IMG/VR virus record: IMGVR_UViG_3300008120_001356
Coordinates: 1-33,977 of that record
Direction: 5' to 3' (one strand)
DNA length: 33,977 bases
Source of the DNA: a virus
Position numbers and translations under genes: made by a program. Shown piece after piece: positions 1-33,499 of the stretch. The first letter of the stretch is position 1, and each line of letters begins with the position of its first letter. The notes beneath the pieces are model-generated. The model ran no database searches, had not been told where the DNA came from, and worked only from the letters and a program-made list of their open reading frames with translations.

Positions 1-300
1 CTTTTGAAAGACATCCCCAAAGATAAGTTCAAAGCAGCCGAGGGACTCATGCAACGCGCGGCCTTCATGCGTATCAATCTCGAGGAGCTGGAAAAGGACA
101 TCAACGAGAATGGCACGATGGAAATGTTCTCCCAGACCAAGGATGTCGAATATGAACGCGAGCGACCAGCGACCCGTATCTACAACGCAACGGTGAAAAA
201 CTATCAAGCCATCTGCCGACAGCTGTTTGACATGCTCCCTCAAGAGACTGCCAAGGTTGAAGCCGATGAACTCATGGGCTTTGTCAAAAGGGCCAAATGA
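1..300 (+). CDS. terS: Terminase small subunit, P27 family (partial, N-terminus off the left edge)
   Basis: The frame is open from base 1 and ends at the TGA at 298-300, so this is the C-terminal part of a gene that begins outside the window. The end has the P27-type layout: a helix with RPATRIYNATVKNY, then QLFDMLPQE and an acidic tail. The small subunit recognises the packaging site (cos) and hands DNA to the large subunit. It overlaps terL by four bases (ATGA). The TTG at 4 is not a credible start, because the family has about 50 more residues upstream. The HNH nuclease at the right edge is the usual gene just before it. Confidence 0.8.
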   Translation, partial: LLKDIPKDKFKAAEGLMQRAAFMRINLEELEKDINENGTMEMFSQTKDVEYERERPATRIYNATVKNYQAICRQLFDMLPQETAKVEADELMGFVKRAK

Positions 301-1940
301 ACCATATCATCGAATACTGGCAGAAAATCGAATCAGGCGAGATTCAAGCCTGTCGCAGGCTGAAACAGCAATACCAAAAGATCATAAACGAAATCAACCA
401 TCCACGTGACCCGTGGATTTTTGATATAGACAAGGCCAACCGTCCCATTGAGTTTATTGAGCGATTTTGCAAGCACTCCAAAGGCAAGTGGATTGGCAAG
501 GGAGTCACCTTAGAACTATTTCAAAAGGCCAAGATGCAAGCCGTTTACGGTTTCGTCCATAAGGACACTGGATTTCGTCGGGCTAGGGAAGTGTTCACTC
601 TCGTCGGCCGAAAGAATGGCAAATCGACAGAAAAAGCCGCCACGGGTCTCTACATGATGGTTGGCGACGGCGAGGGTGGAAGCGAGGCCTATGCCATAGC
701 CACGAAAAAAGACCAAGCCAGAATCGTGTTCAGTGAAGCGGTCAACATGGTCAGCCAGTCGCCAGCACTCTCCAAGCACGTCAAGAAGCGAAAGACGGAT
801 ATCTACTTCCCAGTGACCTTTTCAAAGTTTGAACCCTTGGCGAGCGACTCCAATAGCCTCGACGGACTAAATGTCCACAACGGCATCATGGACGAGCTAC
901 ATGCCATCAAGGATAGAAACCTTTACGACGTGGTCAAGCAAGCCATGTCAGCAAGGGAGCAACCTTTACTGGACATGATCACCACGGCGGGCTTTGTTCG
1001 CGAATGCATCTTTGACTCCATTTACGACTACGCCTGCAAAGTCTTAGACGGTGCGATCGAGGATGAACGGTTTATGAGTTTCATCTACGAACTCGATGAA
1101 CGCTCCGAGTGGACTGATTTTCGAATGTGGGAGAAAGCCAACCCGGGACTCGGGACGATTAAGTCATACGAGGAACTTGCGGCCAATGTGGAAAGGGCAA
1201 AGAATGACCCTGACTTTTTGCCCACGGTGCTGACCAAGGACTTCAACGTCCGTGACACCGTCGCAGGGACATGGTTAACCTTCGACGCCATCAACAACGA
1301 GGAGACCTTTGACATAGAGGAGCTACGCAACACCTACGCCATCGGGGGCGTGGACTTGTCGGCGACCACAGATCTGACGTGTGCCAGTCTAATCGTCATG
1401 AAGCCGAACGACGAGAAGAAATATGTCATCCAGCAATATTTCCTTCCCTCCGAACTCTTGGAGCAGAGGGTCATCGAGGATAAAATCCCTTACGACAAAT
1501 GGCGTGACAGGGGTCTCCTGACTCTTTCACAAGGCAACAAGGTCAACTATAGCGATGTGACGGACTGGTTCCTGAGGATGCTCAACGACTACCACATCCA
1601 TCCTCTTTACATCGGTTACGACCCGTGGAACTCGTCGTACTGGGTGGACGAAATGAAGTCGCGGGGATTCAGCATGATGGAGGTCAGGCAAGGGGTCAAG
1701 AGTATGAGCCAACCGATGAAAGAGCTTGGAGCTGACCTGATGGCCAAGAAGATAAACTACAACAACAACCCGATACTCAAATGGAACCTTACGAACGTCT
1801 CCGTCAAACGAGACGAGAATGACAATATCCGCCCAGTCAAGGGACAGAACCAAAGGCAGAGAATCGACGGGGCTGTCTCTTTGACTATCGCCTATGTGGT
1901 GCTGTTTGAAAAAATGGGCGACTATCAAGCTTTGATATAG
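297..1940 (+). CDS. terL: Terminase large subunit
   Basis: ATP-driven packaging motor and nuclease that cuts and pumps phage DNA into the prohead. The 547-residue protein has normal length. A Walker A motif GRKNGKS lies at residues 104-110, a Walker B NGIMDE at 195-200, and the nuclease half begins with GGVDLSATTD around residue 350, where Asp353 is the expected metal ligand. A further conserved Asp lies in RIDGAVSL near the C-terminus. It belongs to the HK97-like Terminase_1 group, which usually makes cohesive ends together with an HNH protein. The start is translationally coupled to terS through ATGA. The gene looks intact. Confidence 0.95.
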   Translation: MNHIIEYWQKIESGEIQACRRLKQQYQKIINEINHPRDPWIFDIDKANRPIEFIERFCKHSKGKWIGKGVTLELFQKAKMQAVYGFVHKDTGFRRAREVFTLVGRKNGKSTEKAATGLYMMVGDGEGGSEAYAIATKKDQARIVFSEAVNMVSQSPALSKHVKKRKTDIYFPVTFSKFEPLASDSNSLDGLNVHNGIMDELHAIKDRNLYDVVKQAMSAREQPLLDMITTAGFVRECIFDSIYDYACKVLDGAIEDERFMSFIYELDERSEWTDFRMWEKANPGLGTIKSYEELAANVERAKNDPDFLPTVLTKDFNVRDTVAGTWLTFDAINNEETFDIEELRNTYAIGGVDLSATTDLTCASLIVMKPNDEKKYVIQQYFLPSELLEQRVIEDKIPYDKWRDRGLLTLSQGNKVNYSDVTDWFLRMLNDYHIHPLYIGYDPWNSSYWVDEMKSRGFSMMEVRQGVKSMSQPMKELGADLMAKKINYNNNPILKWNLTNVSVKRDENDNIRPVKGQNQRQRIDGAVSLTIAYVVLFEKMGDYQALI

Positions 1941-1951
1941 GAGGTGATGAC

Positions 1952-3172
1952 TTGGAGAAAAGGTCCTTATACCAAATCATCTTTGGCCAAAAGCAACAAA
2001 CGCAAAAAAACACATTCACCCAACTCAAAATGCTCCAAGGCTACCAGCCGACCTTCTCCACATGGTCAGGTTCCGCCTACGACTCCGACGTGGTGAGGGC
2101 TTGCGTGGATGCCATCGCGAGGCACGCAGCCAAGCTGAGACCCAAGCACATCAGAAGGATGAACGGGGAGATTCAGGCGGTCAACTCGACGACAGTGAGG
2201 CTCTTGCAGACGTCTCCAAACCCTTATATGAGTGCTTATGACTTTTTTTACAAGTTAGTGAGCCTCCTCATGGTCAAAAATAACGCTTTCGTGTACGTCG
2301 ACTACGACCCGATGGGCAACCCGAAGGCCTTTTATCCCATCGACTACTCACAAGTGGAGTTCCTGGAGCCAAGGACGGGCAAACCCGAGATTATCGCCAA
2401 GTTTCAATTTAACTCGGGTCAAACGTATGTTCTACCCTATACGGAACTCATCCATCTGAGGCGATTCTACTTTGACAATGACCTTTTCGGCTCATCCAAC
2501 GACAAGGCCATCACTCCGACGCTGGAACTCATCCAGACGTCGAATGAGGGCATCATCAACGCGGTCAAGCAGAGTGCGTTTCTAAGGGGCTTACTGAAAT
2601 ACACGAACATCCTGAAGGCTGAAGATATGAAAGCGGCCAAGGATAAGTTCGTCGAGGACTATCTAACAGTCACCAATCAAGGCGGGATCGCGGCGATTGA
2701 CAACAAGGCTGACTATGTGGAACTCAAAAACGAACCGAAAATGGTGGACGCGAAGCAAATGGAGCTTATTGACTCAAAAGTCTACCGATTCTTTGGAGTA
2801 AACGAAAAAATCGTCAAGTCAAATTTCTCGGAGGAGGAATTTGGCTCTTTTTATGAGTCTGTCATCGAGCCTTTAGCCATCCAGATGAGCTTAGCCTTCA
2901 CCAATCAACTTTTCTCAAATCGTGAACAAGGTTTCGGGAACGAAATCATCTTCGAGGGCAACAGATTACAGTACGCAAGCAACCAAACCAAACTTCAATT
3001 CTTAGCCATGGTGGACAGGGGAGCCATGACACCGAATGAATGGCGAGAAATCTTTAATTGGGCGCCCGTGGAAGGTGGAGACCAACCCGTGAGACGCCTA
3101 GACACAGCCACTATAGGAGGTGAGCCAAATGGACAAGGAACGACGCCTAACAATGGAGATCAGGTCACTTGA
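1952..3172 (+). CDS. Portal protein, HK97 family
   Basis: Forms the dodecameric ring at the head vertex through which DNA enters and leaves. The 406 residues match the family length and show its usual order: N-terminal SGSAYDSDVVRACVDAIA, a central DYSQVEFLEP/LIHLRRFYFDND region, and a C-terminal stem with FGVNEKIVKSNFSEEEFGSFYE. The start is TTG at 1952, eight bases after a perfect AGGAGGTGATGA ribosome site. The C-terminal tail is low complexity (GGEPNGQGTTPNNGDQ) and overlaps the start of the protease gene. Confidence 0.93.
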   Translation: MEKRSLYQIIFGQKQQTQKNTFTQLKMLQGYQPTFSTWSGSAYDSDVVRACVDAIARHAAKLRPKHIRRMNGEIQAVNSTTVRLLQTSPNPYMSAYDFFYKLVSLLMVKNNAFVYVDYDPMGNPKAFYPIDYSQVEFLEPRTGKPEIIAKFQFNSGQTYVLPYTELIHLRRFYFDNDLFGSSNDKAITPTLELIQTSNEGIINAVKQSAFLRGLLKYTNILKAEDMKAAKDKFVEDYLTVTNQGGIAAIDNKADYVELKNEPKMVDAKQMELIDSKVYRFFGVNEKIVKSNFSEEEFGSFYESVIEPLAIQMSLAFTNQLFSNREQGFGNEIIFEGNRLQYASNQTKLQFLAMVDRGAMTPNEWREIFNWAPVEGGDQPVRRLDTATIGGEPNGQGTTPNNGDQVT

Positions 3173-15945: not shown

Positions 15946-16731
15946 ATGATCGTAGGCTTAGACATCGGCAGATCAAGTGTCAAAGTGTTCACTGGCGACA
16001 AAATGGAACAGTTTCCCTCATATCTGGGCGAGTGGCGCAAGCGGAAACTCTCCTCTGAACACAAGGACGACATCGAGGTGGAGTTCCAAGGGGAAAAATA
16101 CTTTGCCGGCACGCTCGCACAAAATGAAAGTGAGTTTGCGCGCTCCATGATGACAGAGGAGAAAGCCCACGCTGACACTCTCCTGCTCGCCCTGGTCGCA
16201 CTCCACCGCGTGACCACAGAGGCCAACATCATCACAGGGCTTCCTGTCTACCTGCATGATACGGAAAGGAAAAACGCACTCAAGCAACTCCTGAGAGGCA
16301 ATGGAAAGTGGGACATCACCGTCAACGGAGTCAAGAAAACCATCTCCGTGCCGCGGATTGAAGTGGCGGTAGAAGGTGGCGCGGCGTTCTGGTCATCTCC
16401 ACGGGACGGCCTCGTCAGAGTCATCGACGCAGGTAGCAGGACCGTGAATTATGTCACTCTCAAGGACAAAAGATACGTGGATCGCGACTCTGGCACTCTC
16501 CCTTTTGGCTTTGGCACCACCATCTCAGGCGACCTCCGTCAAATGGCCGCACGTATCGCAGGGGAACTGGGGAGAAAATGGCGAGAGACGGATGCCGTTC
16601 TTGTCGCTGGTGGCAGGGCGGAGGAGCTAGCAAAGGAATTGAAGCAATATTTCCCACAGACTGAGTGCTTCGTGAACCCACTTTTTGCCAACGCCATCGG
16701 CTACTACCGAATAGGACGGAAACTCCTATGA
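15946..16731 (+). CDS. parM: ParM-like actin-family segregation ATPase
   Basis: Actin-like protein that forms filaments to push plasmid copies apart. All three nucleotide-binding motifs are visible: phosphate-1 GLDIGRSSVKV at residues 4-14 (Asp6), phosphate-2 VIDAGSRT at 159-166, and adenosine motif VLVAGGRAEEL at 218-228. IITGLP at 95-100 is also typical of ParM and Alp proteins. At 261 residues it is shorter than R1 ParM (320). AGGGGTGAT precedes the ATG. It overlaps the parR-like gene by ATGA, and repeat arrays lie on both sides, the usual layout of a type II partition system. Confidence 0.85.
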   Translation: MIVGLDIGRSSVKVFTGDKMEQFPSYLGEWRKRKLSSEHKDDIEVEFQGEKYFAGTLAQNESEFARSMMTEEKAHADTLLLALVALHRVTTEANIITGLPVYLHDTERKNALKQLLRGNGKWDITVNGVKKTISVPRIEVAVEGGAAFWSSPRDGLVRVIDAGSRTVNYVTLKDKRYVDRDSGTLPFGFGTTISGDLRQMAARIAGELGRKWRETDAVLVAGGRAEELAKELKQYFPQTECFVNPLFANAIGYYRIGRKLL

Positions 16732-16931
16732 AAAACTTCAAACGGATGCACATCGTGTTCAATTTAGACAATCCGCACCAGAGAGACCTTTACGAATGGT
16801 GCATGAGTCAGTCAACCAACTTCTCAGGCTTCGCTCGCTCGGTTCTCTTCGCCTACAAGGAACGCACTCCCTCCACTCCAGTCATCACTCACTCTTCCGA
16901 CGACTCTTCCGCGATGGCTGACCTGCTCTAA
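16728..16931 (+). CDS. parR: ParR-like centromere-binding adaptor
   Basis: 67 residues: MKNFKRMHIVFNLDNPHQRDLYEWCMSQ, then NFSGFARSVLFAYKE and a polar tail ending in hydrophobic MADLL. The short N-terminal strand plus two helices fit a ribbon-helix-helix DNA-binding fold as in pSK41 ParR, and the C-terminal tail is where ParR proteins touch ParM. The start overlaps the parM stop (ATGA). The assignment rests mainly on position and fold pattern. It would bind the repeats before parM or those at 16895-17018 and probably repress the operon. Confidence 0.65.
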   Translation: MKNFKRMHIVFNLDNPHQRDLYEWCMSQSTNFSGFARSVLFAYKERTPSTPVITHSSDDSSAMADLL

Positions 16932-17018
16932 TCCGACTCATATTCCGACGCGGAATTTCAATCGGACACGAAAAACCCACTTATACCAACACTTTTGACC
17001 ATTTTTCTCCCTTCCGAC
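16895..17018 (+). repeat. TTCCGAC repeats after parR (possible second centromere/operator)
   Basis: TTCCGAC occurs at 16895-16901, 16943-16949 and 17012-17018, with ATCCGAC at 16931-16937 and the inverted form TCGGA at 16962-16966. Most lie in the 130 bases between parR and the FtsK-like gene. Irregular spacing makes this weaker than a classic iteron array. Confidence 0.4.
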
Positions 17019-17028
17019 TTTGCAAAAC

Positions 17029-17042
17029 TATCCTAAAGGATA
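17029..17042. promoter_or_regulatory. 14-base palindrome before the FtsK-like gene (possible operator)
   Basis: TATCCTAAAGGATA is a perfect inverted repeat lying 21 bases before the ATG of the ATPase gene. No clear promoter is seen, but TTTGCAAAAC and TATTTAAT flank it. It may be a regulator's binding site for the ftsK-relaxation-pilin operon. Confidence 0.4.
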
Positions 17043-17063
17043 CCTATTTAATGGAGGTGGCGC

Positions 17064-18341
17064 ATGCTTATAGAAATCATCGGCTCATTAGGAGCGGCTG
17101 GACTCCTCACATACACTCTCGTTGAGCAAAATGCCTCCCTCACCGACGCAGGCAAGATTCAGCGGGTGGCAAACAACTGCGGACTCACGATCACGGAGAA
17201 GGGACGCAAGCAAACCATTCATCTCCTGCGAAAAAGTCGCCATGCGTGGGGGAGCGAGTACGTCTACCGCATCCCGTTGGGACTCTCGTTTGACGATGTC
17301 CAGAGGAAAAAATCCCACATCGAGGATGGACTCAATCACAAGCGCGGAGTCTTGGACTTAACTTTGGACGATTTCCTGTCCCTCGACCTTAAATCTGACA
17401 TCCTGACGCAGATCAGGAAGCTCCTGACGTCTACGAAGCACAAAAAAGAGATAATAATGGAGTATGACGGCACCTTGAAAATCAAAGTTTACCACGACCC
17501 GATGCCCGAGCGAGTCAATTTTCACTCTGGCAAGGACTGGAAAGTGTGCGTCGGCGTCTCTCGGGAGGGTCTCGTGTATCACGACTTTGAAATGATACCT
17601 CACATGGTAGTCGCGGGGATGACTCGATATGGAAAATCGGTGTTCCTGAAGAACATTATCACCAGTCTCATCAGTCAACCCATCACCTTTACCCTTGTCG
17701 ACTTAAAAGGCGGCCTCGCGTTTAATCGGTTTGTCAGCGTCTCCAAAGTGGAAACGGTAGCATCTGACGTATCGGAAACACTGACAGCTCTACGGGGCAT
17801 TTCTGACGCTCTCAAGAGCAAGCAGAAAGAGTTGCTCAAGATGAAAAAAGAGGATGTGAAAGAGTCTAACGACCGCTCCAGACACTTTATCATCATCGAC
17901 GAGGGCGCGGAAATCGCGTCACAAGGCGAAACCAATGCGGAAAGAAAGAAAATGAAAATCGAATGCGAGCAAATCCTTGGAGAGATTGCACGTATCGGCG
18001 GCGCATTAGGTTACAGGCTCATCTTTGCCACTCAATACCCTACGGCCGACACTCTGCCCCGTCAGGTCAAGCAGAATGCCGATGCCAGACTGTGCTTTCG
18101 TCTCCCGACGGAGACGGCCTCTAGGGTGGTGCTAGACGACTCTGGAGCGGAGTCCTTGCCACTTATCAAAGGGAGAGCTATCTACCGAACTGACCGTGTC
18201 ACCATCGTGCAGACGCCATACGTCGAAAACAACTATATAGATGAGGCGATACGTCCCTATATTGTCATCAAGCCTCGGAAGGAGGAGCATGCGAAACCAC
18301 GAGAGAGACGAGAGCATTCTCTTATCATTGAAGAGACTTGA
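17064..18341 (+). CDS. FtsK/SpoIIIE-HerA type DNA-translocase ATPase
   Basis: 425 residues. One hydrophobic segment lies at residues 3-20. The ATPase core has Walker A GMTRYGKS at 185-192, the LVDLKGG strand at 211-217, Walker B HFIIIDE at 274-280, and the IFATQYPTADTLP sensor strand after it. This is the layout of FtsK-like coupling proteins of mobile elements (Tn916 Orf21, ICEBs1 ConQ) and of the FtsK-like genes found after the endolysin in Bacillus phages such as W-beta and Gamma. It probably pumps double-stranded DNA at the membrane or recruits DNA to a partner. GGAGGTGGCGC precedes the ATG. It overlaps the relaxation gene by 53 bases. Confidence 0.85.
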   Translation: MLIEIIGSLGAAGLLTYTLVEQNASLTDAGKIQRVANNCGLTITEKGRKQTIHLLRKSRHAWGSEYVYRIPLGLSFDDVQRKKSHIEDGLNHKRGVLDLTLDDFLSLDLKSDILTQIRKLLTSTKHKKEIIMEYDGTLKIKVYHDPMPERVNFHSGKDWKVCVGVSREGLVYHDFEMIPHMVVAGMTRYGKSVFLKNIITSLISQPITFTLVDLKGGLAFNRFVSVSKVETVASDVSETLTALRGISDALKSKQKELLKMKKEDVKESNDRSRHFIIIDEGAEIASQGETNAERKKMKIECEQILGEIARIGGALGYRLIFATQYPTADTLPRQVKQNADARLCFRLPTETASRVVLDDSGAESLPLIKGRAIYRTDRVTIVQTPYVENNYIDEAIRPYIVIKPRKEEHAKPRERREHSLIIEET

Positions 18342-18882
18342 CTATCTATCACGGAGTCAGCTCCAGAAGCTCCATCAATTAGGAGGCGAGAGGAACGCAC
18401 GCAGGGTCATGGCGTCGCTCTCAGAGTATCTCCACAGCTTCCGCGGCGACAATGGGGAGAGCATCTACTATTTGACCAAGGCTGGCCGTGAGCGAGTGGG
18501 GGCGGATAAAGTGAGGGCTAAGCTAGCGGATGCGAATCACTATCTGATGCGAAGCGATGCGTATCTATTTTTTAAGGCAAGCGACTGGAAAAATGAGATG
18601 AAATTCACGATCCCAGGAACGGTGCAGGTCATCCCAGATGCTTATTTCCTACTCAATATGCGTAGATATTTTCTCGAAATTGACAATCTGCAAAGTTTGT
18701 CCAAAAACAAGGAAAAGCTGGAAAAGTATCGCAAGCTCAAGGCCTCTAATCTCCTACAAGAGCGACTCCGATACTTTCCGACCCTGATATGGGTGACCTT
18801 GACGGAGACCAGAAAAAAACATCTTGAAAATTGGTCAGAAGGCTTAGAATCGAAAATATACTTATGGAAAGAAATTAAATAG
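18289..18882 (+). CDS. Replication-relaxation family protein
   Basis: 197 residues. The N-terminal 60 form a winged-helix unit (ESILLSLKRLDYLSRSQLQKLHQLG, NARRVMASLSEYLHSF) and SIYYLTKAGRERVG. The C-terminal half has IPDAYFLLNMRRYFLEIDNLQSL, whose PDAxFxL...FLEID looks like a restriction-type nuclease strand. Family members are found on plasmids and Bacillus phages next to FtsK-like ATPases; a nicking or regulatory role is assumed, not proven. The start is the ATG after GGAAGGAGGAG at 18280-18288, inside the end of the ATPase gene, showing an operon. Confidence 0.75.
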   Translation: MRNHERDESILLSLKRLDYLSRSQLQKLHQLGGERNARRVMASLSEYLHSFRGDNGESIYYLTKAGRERVGADKVRAKLADANHYLMRSDAYLFFKASDWKNEMKFTIPGTVQVIPDAYFLLNMRRYFLEIDNLQSLSKNKEKLEKYRKLKASNLLQERLRYFPTLIWVTLTETRKKHLENWSEGLESKIYLWKEIK

Positions 18883-19361: not shown

Positions 19362-20762
19362 TTAAGCTTTCCAGATGATGGAGATTTCTTTCCCATCCTT
19401 GACCTCGATTCGTTTCACCAGTTGGGCCAATGCTCGCTTGAGTTCCAAGCGATTGTCAGTTTCGACGTATGACTCAAAAACTCGATTCTCGTGAGCGGCG
19501 ATGGAGCGGATCAACTCTTCCCGCTCTTTTTCTAGTCGAGTGCGAGCTTTTTTCAAATCATCTGCGGTGATGAGTTCATTCTCGTAGGCTTCAATCTGCT
19601 TTTGCCATCGCGATTCAATCTTTTCCAGTTTGTTCTTGAGCAGGTCTTTCTCGACGATGTCCACAGGCTCGGCCTTAAAATATTCAATCTCACTTGGGTC
19701 CGCGTCGGAGATTCGTTTCCATTCGGTCAAGACAAGAGGTTCGATTTCCTCTCTGTGGACAAAGTGATGGAAGCAGTTTCCTCGCTTGTTGTAGCCTTCG
19801 CAAAGGTACTTGTGATAGACCTTTCGATTCTGGTTAAGGTTCTTGCGTACAGTTCTGCCCACCATCTTCCCACCACAATGGACGCAGACGACGAGACCTG
19901 ACAAGAGGTAGTTGTCGGATGCAAAATGCTTCCTTGCTCCTGTTTTACGTGCGTAGAGGATCTGGTTGGCTTTCTCGAACATTTCCTTTGAGATAATCGG
20001 CTGGTGATGATCTTCGATGACAATCCACTCCTCTGATGGCCTTTTGACTTGAGACTTTCCCTTGCGATATTTTCTGTTATAAATGAAAGTCCCTGTCAAT
20101 GCTTCCAGTTTCATCAAGTCGCGGATTCTGCCCTCTGTCCACGCTTTTCCACCTTTAGACAGGATGCCAAGCTGATTAAGTTTAGCAGAGATCGCGAGAG
20201 GACCGAGAGACTCATTGAGAAACCAGTCAAAGATTTTCCTCACGATCAGCGACTCCTCGACGTTGATGCGATACTCCCCATCAACGACCTCATACCCGTA
20301 AGCAGCCTTCCCGATCAGGCGATTCTTCCGAGCAAGCGAGCGAAGGTTTTCCTGCACTCTTTCACGGTTCCGCTCCCGCTCAAACTCCGCGACTGCTCCC
20401 AGAACCTGCAAAGTGAGCTTTCCCGCGGCGGTTGACGTGTCGAAGGATTCAGACACAGACGCATAAGCCACAGAGTGCTTCTCGAAAAACTCCACGATGG
20501 ACAAAATATCTGAAAGTTTCCGCGATAGCCTGTCCAATTTAGTCGTGATGATGACGTCAAAGTCTTTCACGCTCTCCAAAAGCCTCTGTAAGTTTTTCCT
20601 GTTCAAGTCCTTTGCAGAATACCCATCATCAATGAAAACCTGCGGTGACTGCCATCCCATCGCTTTACAATAGGCTCTGCCTCTCTCCTCTTGCTCTTCT
20701 AGTGAGTTTCCTTGCTTGGCTTGCTCCTCTGTCGAAACTCGTACATATAGGGCTGTTCTCAT
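19362..20762 (-). CDS. int: Large serine recombinase (phage integrase)
   Basis: 466 residues that integrate and excise the prophage between attP and attB. The catalytic domain starts MRTALYVRVSTEEQAKQG with nucleophile Ser10 and has TTKLDRLSR at 73-81 and FDTSTAAGK around 107-115. The recombinase domain follows (AYGYEVVDG, TGTFIYNRKYRKG). A zinc ribbon has Cys293, Cys296, Cys321 and Cys330, then a coiled coil near 365-425. The start at 20762 has CAGGAGACGAC before it and is preferred over the longer frame. It is transcribed against the pilin gene. attP should flank the gene, but I could not place it. No recombination directionality factor is recognisable. Confidence 0.93.
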   Translation of the reverse strand: MRTALYVRVSTEEQAKQGNSLEEQEERGRAYCKAMGWQSPQVFIDDGYSAKDLNRKNLQRLLESVKDFDVIITTKLDRLSRKLSDILSIVEFFEKHSVAYASVSESFDTSTAAGKLTLQVLGAVAEFERERNRERVQENLRSLARKNRLIGKAAYGYEVVDGEYRINVEESLIVRKIFDWFLNESLGPLAISAKLNQLGILSKGGKAWTEGRIRDLMKLEALTGTFIYNRKYRKGKSQVKRPSEEWIVIEDHHQPIISKEMFEKANQILYARKTGARKHFASDNYLLSGLVVCVHCGGKMVGRTVRKNLNQNRKVYHKYLCEGYNKRGNCFHHFVHREEIEPLVLTEWKRISDADPSEIEYFKAEPVDIVEKDLLKNKLEKIESRWQKQIEAYENELITADDLKKARTRLEKEREELIRSIAAHENRVFESYVETDNRLELKRALAQLVKRIEVKDGKEISIIWKA

Positions 20763-20797
20763 GTCGTCTCCTGTCAGTTTTTGTCGGTAAATGCACA

Positions 20798-20826
20798 TTG
20801 CAAAATAGAACGCACATTCGTATAAT
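20798..20826 (+). promoter_or_regulatory. Strong plus-strand promoter between integrase and repressor
   Basis: TTGCAA, 17 bases, TATAAT. It points towards the small frame at 20858 and against the repressor gene. The perfect inverted repeat TACAACTTGTA at 20832-20842 covers the predicted start of transcription, so the promoter is probably repressed. Confidence 0.7.
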
Positions 20827-20831
20827 TTGAG

Positions 20832-20842
20832 TACAACTTGTA
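20832..20842. promoter_or_regulatory. Candidate repressor operator TACAACTTGTA
   Basis: An 11-base perfect palindrome with central C. The half-site TACAA recurs at 21272-21276, 21314-21318 and 21349-21353 around the repressor and cro starts, which suggests that all four are targets of the phage repressor. Confidence 0.6.
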
Positions 20843-20857
20843 AAGGAAGTGAATCTA

Positions 20858-21034
20858 TTGGAGATTGAAAAGATGATTTTGGAGTTACAAGGCAGTCACA
20901 ATTTGACGAAAGAAAAGCTTATTCAGATTGTTTTTGAGAATTTAAGACAACCTTTATTAAGTCGATCAGAATCTCCTTGTTCCTCGGAATCGTCAGATCA
21001 ACTCCAGTCTGCTGGACGATATCCCTCAAAATAG
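20858..21034 (+). CDS. Small protein convergent with the repressor gene (doubtful)
   Basis: A frame of 58 residues from TTG 20858, or 61 from GTG 20849, after AAAGGAAGTG and a strong promoter. The first 30 residues (EIEKMILELQGSHNLTKEKL) look like real protein. From base 20919 on it is antisense to the repressor gene and looks like a shadow (SRSESPCSSESSDQLQS). It could be a true small regulator, the remains of a longer gene, or just an antisense RNA leader that lowers repressor levels. Confidence 0.35.
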   Translation: MEIEKMILELQGSHNLTKEKLIQIVFENLRQPLLSRSESPCSSESSDQLQSAGRYPSK

Positions 21035-21251
21035 TCTCAGTTATATTCTTATCCTCGTGACCATACATAATCCACTCCACAGAGACTCCGTAGATCTTCG
21101 CCAGCTGAAACAAAGTTTCGCTGTCTGGCTCCGCGGTATCAAGTTCATGCTTGGAGATTGTTGTGGAGTGGACTCCTAGCTTGTCTGCTATCTGCCTTTG
21201 AGTGTACCCCTTTTGACCCCTTGCCTGCTTCAATCTCTGACCTATCGACAT
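20919..21251 (-). CDS. Phage repressor, XRE/cI-like
   Basis: 110 residues. The helix-turn-helix fills residues 1-60: MSIGQRLKQARGQKGYTQRQ, IADKLGVHSTTISKHELDTA and ETLFQLAKIYGVSVEWIMYG. The C-terminal part (residues 65-110) is a short helical region without a peptidase domain, so it is not a LexA-type self-cleaving repressor. ATG at 21251 follows AGGTGATAAT and is preferred over the longer frame. It is divergent from the cro-like gene, with TACAA sites between. No ImmA-type protease is present, so how it is inactivated is unknown. Confidence 0.85.
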   Translation of the reverse strand: MSIGQRLKQARGQKGYTQRQIADKLGVHSTTISKHELDTAEPDSETLFQLAKIYGVSVEWIMYGHEDKNITETILRDIVQQTGVDLTIPRNKEILIDLIKVVLNSQKQSE

Positions 21252-21271
21252 ATTATCACCTGACTCAATTT

Positions 21272-21355
21272 TACAACTTTGAATAGTTTTCTGATAGTAC
21301 ATGAAATAATTTCTACAATAATCACGAATTAAGTAGAAAATTGTTCTTTACAACT
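21272..21355. promoter_or_regulatory. Operator region between repressor and cro (three TACAA sites)
   Basis: TACAACT is found at 21272-21278 and 21349-21355, and TACAA at 21314-21318. The starts are 42 and 35 bases apart. The last overlaps the -35 box of the cro promoter, and the first is just before the repressor's ribosome site. This fits a switch that both represses cro and controls its own gene. Confidence 0.55.
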
Positions 21356-21375
21356 AGAAAAATTATCTATATTAT
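21347..21375 (+). promoter_or_regulatory. Early promoter in front of the cro-like gene
   Basis: TTTACA, 17 bases, TATTAT. The -35 box overlaps an operator-like TACAACT. It would drive the whole early operon from 21420 on. Confidence 0.6.
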
Positions 21376-21419
21376 AGACATATGGAAATATTTTTATACA
21401 TGAATCGAGGTGAAAATTG

Positions 21420-21662
21420 ATGAACGCTGACGTTTTGGTTAAGTATCAGAAAAAGAAAAATTTAACGTCAACTCGTGTTAGTTTAGCTCTTGGCAAGCAT
21501 CCATCGTGGTTTGCCAAGGTTACCAGCGGCAAGACTCAGTTGAGATCGGAGTATATCAAGCCATTATCAGATTTGTTTGGTGTCAGACCTGAAAAGTTGG
21601 TGAAAGAGTATTTTTTAGCTCCCGAAGTAGAAAAAATTTCTACAATTAATGACGAAAACTAG
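21420..21662 (+). CDS. Cro-like XRE-type DNA-binding protein
   Basis: 80 residues with a helix-turn-helix in MNADVLVKYQKKKNLTSTRV, SLALGKHPSWFAKVTSGKTQ and YIKPLSDLFGVRPEKLVKEY. It is the first gene of the rightward early operon and divergent from the repressor, the usual place of cro. GAGGTG precedes the ATG at 21420 by seven bases. The region is AT-rich compared with the structural genes. Confidence 0.75.
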   Translation: MNADVLVKYQKKKNLTSTRVSLALGKHPSWFAKVTSGKTQLRSEYIKPLSDLFGVRPEKLVKEYFLAPEVEKISTINDEN

Positions 21663-31733: not shown

Positions 31734-32108
31734 ATGCCAATAAATAACACTATCACACCAACAGGACGCGGGATACCCACAACCACAACAGTGACCATCG
31801 ACAACGGCGCATCTTTATCGGGTGCCGTCAACTTATCAGGCTTCACACTTATCGGCATCGACATGCCAGCATCATGGACAGCGGCAAACTTGACTCTACA
31901 AGCCAGCATCGACAACTCCACATGGGACAACGTGTTTGACTCTCTCGGGACAGAGGTGACCATCACAGCTGCGGCATCGAGATTCATCTTACTCAACCCT
32001 GCCGACTTTGTTTCCGTCCGCTACCTCAAAGTACGTAGTGGCACATCAGGGACACCTGTCAACCAAGGCGGAGCGAGGACAATCACACTCATCGTGAGGG
32101 CGATATGA
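31734..32108 (+). CDS. Virion surface protein, beta-rich (appendage cassette, first gene)
   Basis: 124 residues: PTGRGIPTTTTVTIDNGASL, FTLIGIDMPASWTAANLTLQ, TEVTITAAASRFILLNPADF and ARTITLIVRAI. It looks like a jelly-roll of the kind seen in phage appendage proteins; the pair with a LamG-type protein recurs in phages. ATG at 31734 follows GAGAGGAGACTACTT. It is the first gene after the late promoter and overlaps the LamG gene by four bases. Confidence 0.55.
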   Translation: MPINNTITPTGRGIPTTTTVTIDNGASLSGAVNLSGFTLIGIDMPASWTAANLTLQASIDNSTWDNVFDSLGTEVTITAAASRFILLNPADFVSVRYLKVRSGTSGTPVNQGGARTITLIVRAI

Positions 32109-33499
32109 GTCTACTCCTACTACGGAAAAGGTTTAACCCTCGGAGCCTACCCAACCTGCAACTATGGCTACCTGCCGACCGTATCGGGGTGCAGGGCTAC
32201 TCGTTAGACTTTGACGGGACAGATGATTATGTACAGGCAGACAACGAGATAACAGCCTACCCGTTTACCCTAGAGTGTTGGGTAAGACCAGAAACAACAG
32301 GAGTAACTCATAGTTTAGTCACAATTAATGATAGTACAACTTCCTCTATTTATTATGGTATTTATTTTACGGGTTCTCGTTTTGGCATACAGGCTAGAAA
32401 TACAACAGTTCGAGGAAATACAACAACTAACACTTTTACAACAAATGTTTGGTATCATGTTGCAGGTGTTTTTAATTCAGCAACAGACCGAAAATTATAT
32501 GTTAATGGAGTAGAACAAGTTACAGGCACAGATTCAGTTAATTTTAGCAATACAGCAAATAATAAAGTTTTACTAGGAGTAGTAAGAATAGTATCTCCGA
32601 CAAGTTATCTGAACGGTCAACTCTCAGACGTCCGCATATGGAACACCGCACGCACCCAGCAACAAATCGCCGACAACTACCAAAAACGACTCATCGGCAA
32701 CGAATCGGGCTTAGTAGGCTACTGGAAACTCGATAAAGGGAGCGGCACAACCGTAGCAGACTCCACGACCAACGCCAACGCAGGAACAATCACGGGTGCC
32801 ATATGGGACAACAGCGAACCTTTCACCGAGCCGATAGACGACGGCACAGCGGTGCGGATATGGAGCGACCAAAGCGGCAACGGCTATGACGCGACACAGT
32901 CCACCACAGCGGCAAGACCGACTTATATCACGAGTGGGCTGAACGGGTTACCTGTGGTGAGGTTTGACGGTACGGATGACCATTTAGGATTTAGCGGCGG
33001 AGCATTGAGTTTGCTAAAAAATGTAGCAGGAGCAACAATTTTTGTAGCGGTCAAATATTCAGCAACCGCAGTAAATGCTCCTTCCTTTTTTGCATCAAGA
33101 AATAGTTCGTCAACTAGTGTAAGAATTTTAATACGTACGTCAACAGCTCCAAAATACAATATGCAAGCGACAAGATTAGACGCAGACACCGCGATAAATA
33201 TGAATTCAGTTCAAGCGACTAACACCAATAGTGTTGTCATCCAGACAGCAAAAGCAGATTATCAAAATCAAACTTTAGAGCAATTTATCAACGGGACACT
33301 TGACGGGTCAACTACTTTCGCGACATCAGGTAATACAGAAAACGCGGATTCATTAGCAATTTTCTTGGGCAGAGTTTCATCAACTTATTTAACAGGCGAC
33401 ATCGCAGAAATCATAGTATACAACCGAGCACTAAACACAAGCGAGCTAAGCCAAGTCCATCGCTACCTTGCGAGAAAGTGGGGGATAGCACTTGCGTAA
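32105..33499 (+). CDS. LamG/concanavalin-like adhesin with nested domains
   Basis: 464 residues with two laminin-G-like domains. The opening LPNLQLWLPADRIG (residues 15-28) is the first strand of a domain that resumes at about 246 with TAVRIWSDQSGNGYDATQST and VVRFDGTDDHLGF and ends AEIIVYNRALNTSEL. A second complete LamG domain lies between, from YSLDFDGTDDYVQADN to GLVGYWKLDKGSG. So one domain seems inserted into a loop of the other. The cores of both domains are AT-rich compared with their edges. It probably binds sugars on the host surface. Confidence 0.75.
   Translation: MSLLLLRKRFNPRSLPNLQLWLPADRIGVQGYSLDFDGTDDYVQADNEITAYPFTLECWVRPETTGVTHSLVTINDSTTSSIYYGIYFTGSRFGIQARNTTVRGNTTTNTFTTNVWYHVAGVFNSATDRKLYVNGVEQVTGTDSVNFSNTANNKVLLGVVRIVSPTSYLNGQLSDVRIWNTARTQQQIADNYQKRLIGNESGLVGYWKLDKGSGTTVADSTTNANAGTITGAIWDNSEPFTEPIDDGTAVRIWSDQSGNGYDATQSTTAARPTYITSGLNGLPVVRFDGTDDHLGFSGGALSLLKNVAGATIFVAVKYSATAVNAPSFFASRNSSSTSVRILIRTSTAPKYNMQATRLDADTAINMNSVQATNTNSVVIQTAKADYQNQTLEQFINGTLDGSTTFATSGNTENADSLAIFLGRVSSTYLTGDIAEIIVYNRALNTSELSQVHRYLARKWGIALA

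Follow-up and report, generated by a model that had tools for sequence, protein, structure and literature searches.

Antisense or convergent transcription at the lysogeny switch is known from lambda OOP and from the face-to-face promoters of P2 and 186, whose positions and targets differ from those of the locus analyzed here. OOP is also mentioned in an excerpt of PMC7067206. In the Sa3int phage phi13, orfC lies between int and cI, has a transcription start of its own, and is read opposite to the lysogeny genes, as documented by tagRNA-seq and strand-specific Northern analysis, with both transcripts seen on the blots (PMC9694928). In 80alpha, ith-1, which was long annotated as an excisionase gene, has int on one side and the lysogeny genes on the other, lies on the strand opposite to them, and overlaps tha-1. 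The study of this operon describes the ith-1 promoter as constitutive in reporter assays, with direct RNA sequencing also used, ascribes the rise of ith-1 after induction to lost interference from the cI promoter, and states that the antisense promoter suppresses the overlapping lysogeny transcript only mildly (PMC11087260). In 80alpha, int occupies 32-1417 (-), ith-1 (or 'xis') 1525-1725 (+), and the next lysogeny gene 1662-2567 (-), and the gap between int and ith-1 holds a perfect TATAAT. In the promoter-like match before ith-1 (1474-1502, L030), the region of the -35 and spacer includes an inverted repeat, TTTAGTAC/GTACTAAA.

The stretch of DNA analyzed here (the window) is the whole virus record IMGVR_UViG_3300008120_001356 of IMG/VR, 33,977 bases of an uncultured tailed phage that encodes terminase, portal, head, and tape-measure proteins. 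Its gene order at the switch is that of 80alpha, namely int (-), a small frame (+), and an overlapped lysogeny gene (-). However, the gene overlapped in 80alpha is tha-1, which serves in defence, and that in the window is the repressor itself, and the overlap is 64 bases in the former compared to about 115 in the latter. BLASTP gave no alignment between the small frame of the window and 80alpha Ith-1 at E <= 100, and the frame could not be assigned to the Ith (Tha inhibitor) family. The likeness to phi13 resides in an opposite gene between int and the repressor; host and phage are different, and the phi13 evidence is experimental, whereas ours is drawn from sequence alone. The window has the gene order of a noncontiguous operon, with the small frame (+), a putative gene, between co-oriented repressor (-) and int (-) genes, and a sequence match, TTGCAA-17-TATAAT, would provide the frame with a promoter of its own, which we call PX. 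This phage is likely a further case of an int/PX/repressor layout already known from other phages.

The window also resembles Geobacillus phage vB_GthS_PK5.2, in which FtsK, replication-relaxation, serine integrase, repressor, and cro genes follow in the same order, and the integrases of PK5.2 and its relatives NIIg3.2, E2, and D6E are 31-33% identical to that of the window. These four Geobacillus-type phages differ, however, in that the repressor gene is longer and int comes 31-70 bp after it. None of the six integrase-near phages (the four Geobacillus-type phages, A118, and A403) had such an opposite promoter in the 250 bp upstream of int. Partition (ParA-like), FtsK/SpoIIIE, and replication-relaxation genes are located between lysis and integrase in the window (15946-18882); this set is plasmid-like, yet the phage also has an integrase, and the FtsK and replication-relaxation pair is common to PK5.2. 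Among the matches listed for literature on RNA antisense to a phage repressor, there was no relevant paper.

The lysogeny region and its one relative

The integrase gene (19362-20762, -) encodes a large serine recombinase of 466 aa with the Pfam domains Resolvase, Recombinase, and Zn_ribbon_recom, and has the Shine-Dalgarno (SD) sequence AGGAGA before its ATG. The repressor gene (20919-21251, -) encodes an HTH_3 protein of 110 aa, which scored 59.1 bits versus the Pfam cut-off of 23 and whose nearest solved structure was the Xre-family regulator of ICEBs1 (7t8i, E 2.4e-13). The bounds used for these two genes start later than the extended starts of the program-made list of open reading frames. 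No ImmA-type protease gene was found directly beside the repressor, the immediate neighbors of which were int and a cro-like small HTH gene (21420-21662, +; 80 aa, weak HTH_3 match, relative in L029). The latter is the first gene of the early operon, with the early genes downstream of it on the + strand and the early (cro) promoter TTTACA-17-TATTAT at 21347-21375 (+). G+C content falls from 0.495 to 0.406 across 19-22 kb.

Viral contigs were scanned with the repressor, small frame, integrase, and cro sequences, and all four scans returned the same single contig, IMGVR_UViG_3300042294_002843, which is 90% identical over 6 kb and was the sole regional relative found; the loci L002, L003, and L004 overlap and all come from it. 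The integrase scan also returned L005 at 30%, and a genome scan gave distant HTH proteins only (33-45%). A pattern scan for the promoter and palindrome returned the same contig again and three further ones, which were rejected as chance matches, since neither the repressor nor cro, the small frame, or the integrase had a detectable relative in them. At four-fold sites, the relative differed at 39 of 180 positions in int (4 of 37 in its first 100 codons), at 5 of 39 in the repressor, and at none of 30 in cro. About 400 bp (21240-21640), comprising the repressor start, the operator region, and most of cro, were near-identical to the relative, silent sites included, which in comparison with the diverged int points to either recent exchange or unusual constraint.

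A probable promoter and a small frame facing the repressor

An earlier note on this DNA had claimed a near-consensus promoter between integrase and repressor, and the sequence features on which it rests were borne out. PX is located at 20798-20826 on the + strand of the 156-bp gap with int (-) on one side and the repressor (-) on the other, and consists of a -35-like hexamer TTGCAA (20798-20803, 4/6 match), a spacer of 17, and the -10 hexamer TATAAT (20821-20826, 6/6 match). Dinucleotide shuffles of the gap, searched on the + strand for hexamer matches of at least 10/12 at a spacing of 16-18, contained such a site in 115 of 3000 cases; sites whose -10 was perfect occurred in 7 of 3000. On both strands, sites of at least 10/12 were present in 24 of the 1302 156-bp tiles of the phage and numbered 10 in the whole 34-kb window. 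PX beats chance, though not to an extreme, and is probable rather than certain. The relative retains both hexamers unchanged (L003) with two base differences in the spacer; this conservation is weak evidence, since there is one relative only and the neighborhood is conserved too. A direct repeat, AATGCACATT / AACGCACATT, with copies 19 bp apart at 20790-20818, spans the PX -35, and its second copy is altered in the relative (GC to TT at 20812-20813). The predicted fold of the PX leader was no stabler than that of shuffles, 29 of 200 of which were at least as stable, and Rfam gave no match.

The small frame follows at 20858-21034 (+), with 58 codons from TTG or 61 from the alternative start GTG at 20849. 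The TTG has the better spacing to an SD-like sequence, AAGGAAGTGA, at 20843-20852 (+), the duplex energy of which (-6.4) was equalled or bettered by 395 of the 3597 start codons of the window and is therefore ordinary. Promoter, SD, and start are in the correct order for a gene. Over the last ~38 codons, which are two thirds of its length or about 115 bases, the frame overlaps the 3' part of the repressor in antisense. No family was found for the small frame and, in the searches made, no homologue except in the one relative, where the frame is open. In the overlap region the comparison with this relative gave 8 non-synonymous and 1 synonymous codon changes, a pattern that follows the third positions of the repressor and is expected if only the repressor is constrained; outside the overlap there are just 20 codons, with 1 synonymous and 1 non-synonymous change. 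When the repressor was recoded synonymously, 137, 464, or 1785 of 20000 recodings contained an equally long frame, according to the codon usage assumed, the lowest count coming from whole-phage codon use and the highest from the repressor's own codons. Given the latter, the length of the small frame is unremarkable. Its predicted structure consists of helices at residues 2-13 and 18-30, with pLDDT about 82 over the N-terminal 30 residues, and an unstructured tail of low confidence (pTM 0.31).

Intrinsic terminators were sought on either strand from int to the early genes, and none was found, versus 2.5 expected in shuffles; a second look gave three weak hairpins, the best at -6.7 kcal/mol, and none of them before a clear T run. 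The antisense geometry described by the earlier note thus held up, with the promoter, the small frame, and the direction as claimed and no intrinsic terminator detected up to or within the repressor. Since no terminator was detected, a transcript from PX could pass through the repressor and continue into the cro operon if it is not stopped by Rho. Rho commonly trims antisense RNA in Bacillus. On the other strand, the stretch from repressor to int likewise gave no intrinsic terminator, and the gap lacked a minus-strand promoter of at least 9/12 that could serve int, so that int would be best fed by the repressor transcript, which would have to cross PX.

Candidate operators

A perfect 11-bp palindrome, TACAACTTGTA, was found at 20832-20842, at the expected start of PX (about 20833). 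It is unique in the window, where TACAANTTGTA occurs once. In the only relative the palindrome is not intact; a one-base deletion removes one T, the site reads TACAACTTGAAAGG, and the symmetry is broken. The earlier note was thus right that a palindrome lies at the PX start of this phage, and this part of the claim does not extend to the relative. The word TACAACT occurs five times in the window, counting both strands, and three of the five are within 321 bp, at 20832, at 21272 (21272-21278, +) in the repressor leader, and at 21349 (21349-21355, +) where it overlaps the -35 of the cro promoter. In the stretches of the relative that were compared, TACAACT was present at those three places only, 3 of 3 in each of L002, L003, and L004. 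Recurrence was defined as three occurrences across both gaps and at most two elsewhere, and when the two gaps were shuffled, some equally recurrent 7-mer arose in 207 of 2000 cases. With the palindrome broken in a 90%-identical relative and such recurrence also seen in shuffles, the further claim that the repressor controls PX via this palindrome is weak. Direct repressor control through TACAACT may be an optional extra to the mechanism proposed below, and is not required by it. Three TACAAC words exactly 18 bases apart at 32401-32442, in the gene at 32105-33499, are probably a six-residue protein repeat.

Four GTAGAAAATTRTTC-like sites, at 21281-21294 (-), 21303-21316 (-), 21333-21346 (+), and 21354-21367 (+), form a candidate operator array at 21281-21367, across the repressor/cro gap. 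The top seven matches of the window to the GTAGAAAATTRTTC matrix, four of which are the sites used to build it, were all in this switch array and in a 17-bp palindrome of the same class, GTAGAAAAAATTTCTAC, at 21627-21643. The latter lies at the 3' end of the cro-like gene, has perfect 7-bp arms (GTAGAAA-AAA-TTTCTAC) that are kept in the relative, and looks like a candidate further operator before the next early genes. The array is striking against the whole window, but was matched in 33 of 300 shuffles of its own AT-rich gap, and the GTAGAAAATTRTTC sites are candidate operators only, not beyond what composition gives. The int-repressor gap holds no site of this class, its best match ranking 302. 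When 12 repressor relatives (8 from phage records and 4 from genome contigs) were aligned, none shared the recognition helix by eye, and so no operator could be transferred to the window repressor.

A proposed mutual interference and its alternatives

We propose, with moderate confidence, that the lysogeny operon contains a small antisense unit, and that the PX and repressor-int transcripts would exclude each other by transcriptional interference. A sigma-A-type PX would drive a ~58-codon gene that runs opposite to the repressor over the latter's 3' end, and the repressor promoter would read the other way, through PX into int. In a lysogen, transcription from the repressor promoter would pass over PX and hold it low. 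During lytic growth the repressor promoter would be off and PX would go up, with the small protein being made and residual transcription of the repressor and int going down. From the DNA elements, their gene order, the lack of a detectable terminator, and the retention of both promoter and frame in one relative, we infer PX activity, co-transcription of repressor and int, translation of the small frame, and interference between the two transcripts. Mutual interference is likely the most economical mechanism, and the small protein its likely product.

The small protein could instead be the point of the locus, for instance as a recombination directionality factor for the serine integrase or as an inhibitor of a lysogeny function, with the antisense overlap being incidental. 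The frame adjoins int and is divergent from it, its N-terminal 30 residues are modelled as two helices, and 80alpha 'xis' in the same place proved to be a protein inhibitor, with transcription from its promoter having a minor effect (PMC11087260). Against this, the searches gave neither homologue nor family, the pTM was low, and the tail of the frame is unconstrained, and we hold this explanation as a tentative one that is somewhat unlikely. We consider it unlikely that the PX match is fortuitous or too weak and that the gap is a spacer by which phage recombination joined an integrase cassette to an AT-rich switch module. The drop in G+C across the region would fit such a junction, as would the -35 of just 4/6, the equal site held by about 4% of gap shuffles, and the small frame free of protein-level constraint, whereas the rarity in shuffles of a -35 match joined to a perfect -10, the retention of both hexamers in the relative, and the correct placement of SD and frame argue for a real promoter. 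Attachment sites of serine integrases are often beside int, and the gap might be all or part of the phage attachment site, with the AATGCACATT / AACGCACATT repeat and TACAACTTGTA as recombinase sites. This is highly improbable in our view, as the repeat is direct and not inverted, its second copy differs in the relative, and several related prophage records end at the 3' end of int, which suggests a site at the other end of that gene. No integrated copy of the phage was found.

The reading of the earlier note was that repressor bound to the palindrome at the PX start would, on falling, free antisense RNA that cuts the repressor further, a positive feedback sharpening induction. The strongest argument for it is the placement of TACAACT at all three control points, the start of PX, the leader of the repressor, and the -35 of cro, and in a published model convergent interference together with antisense RNA was switch-like and, with protein feedback, bistable (PMC4519249). 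The broken palindrome of the relative, the equal recurrence of 7-mers in shuffles, the lack of GTAGAAAATTRTTC-like candidates in the gap, and the constitutive behavior of the equivalent 80alpha promoter (PMC11087260) all count against such feedback, and we regard it as doubtful. Its extended form, in which a repressor-controlled antisense transcript from PX would span the whole repressor into the cro operon so that one release would both silence the repressor and feed the lytic operon, is very unlikely.

The published cases that we found of an opposite gene in a lysogeny operon all come from staphylococcal phages. This phage would provide a case in which the integrase is nearest to the Geobacillus type and antisense transcription enters the repressor itself, which would suggest that the layout is a recurrent design. 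The locus would also allow a simple test of the extent to which a lysogeny switch can be tuned by antisense transcription alone.
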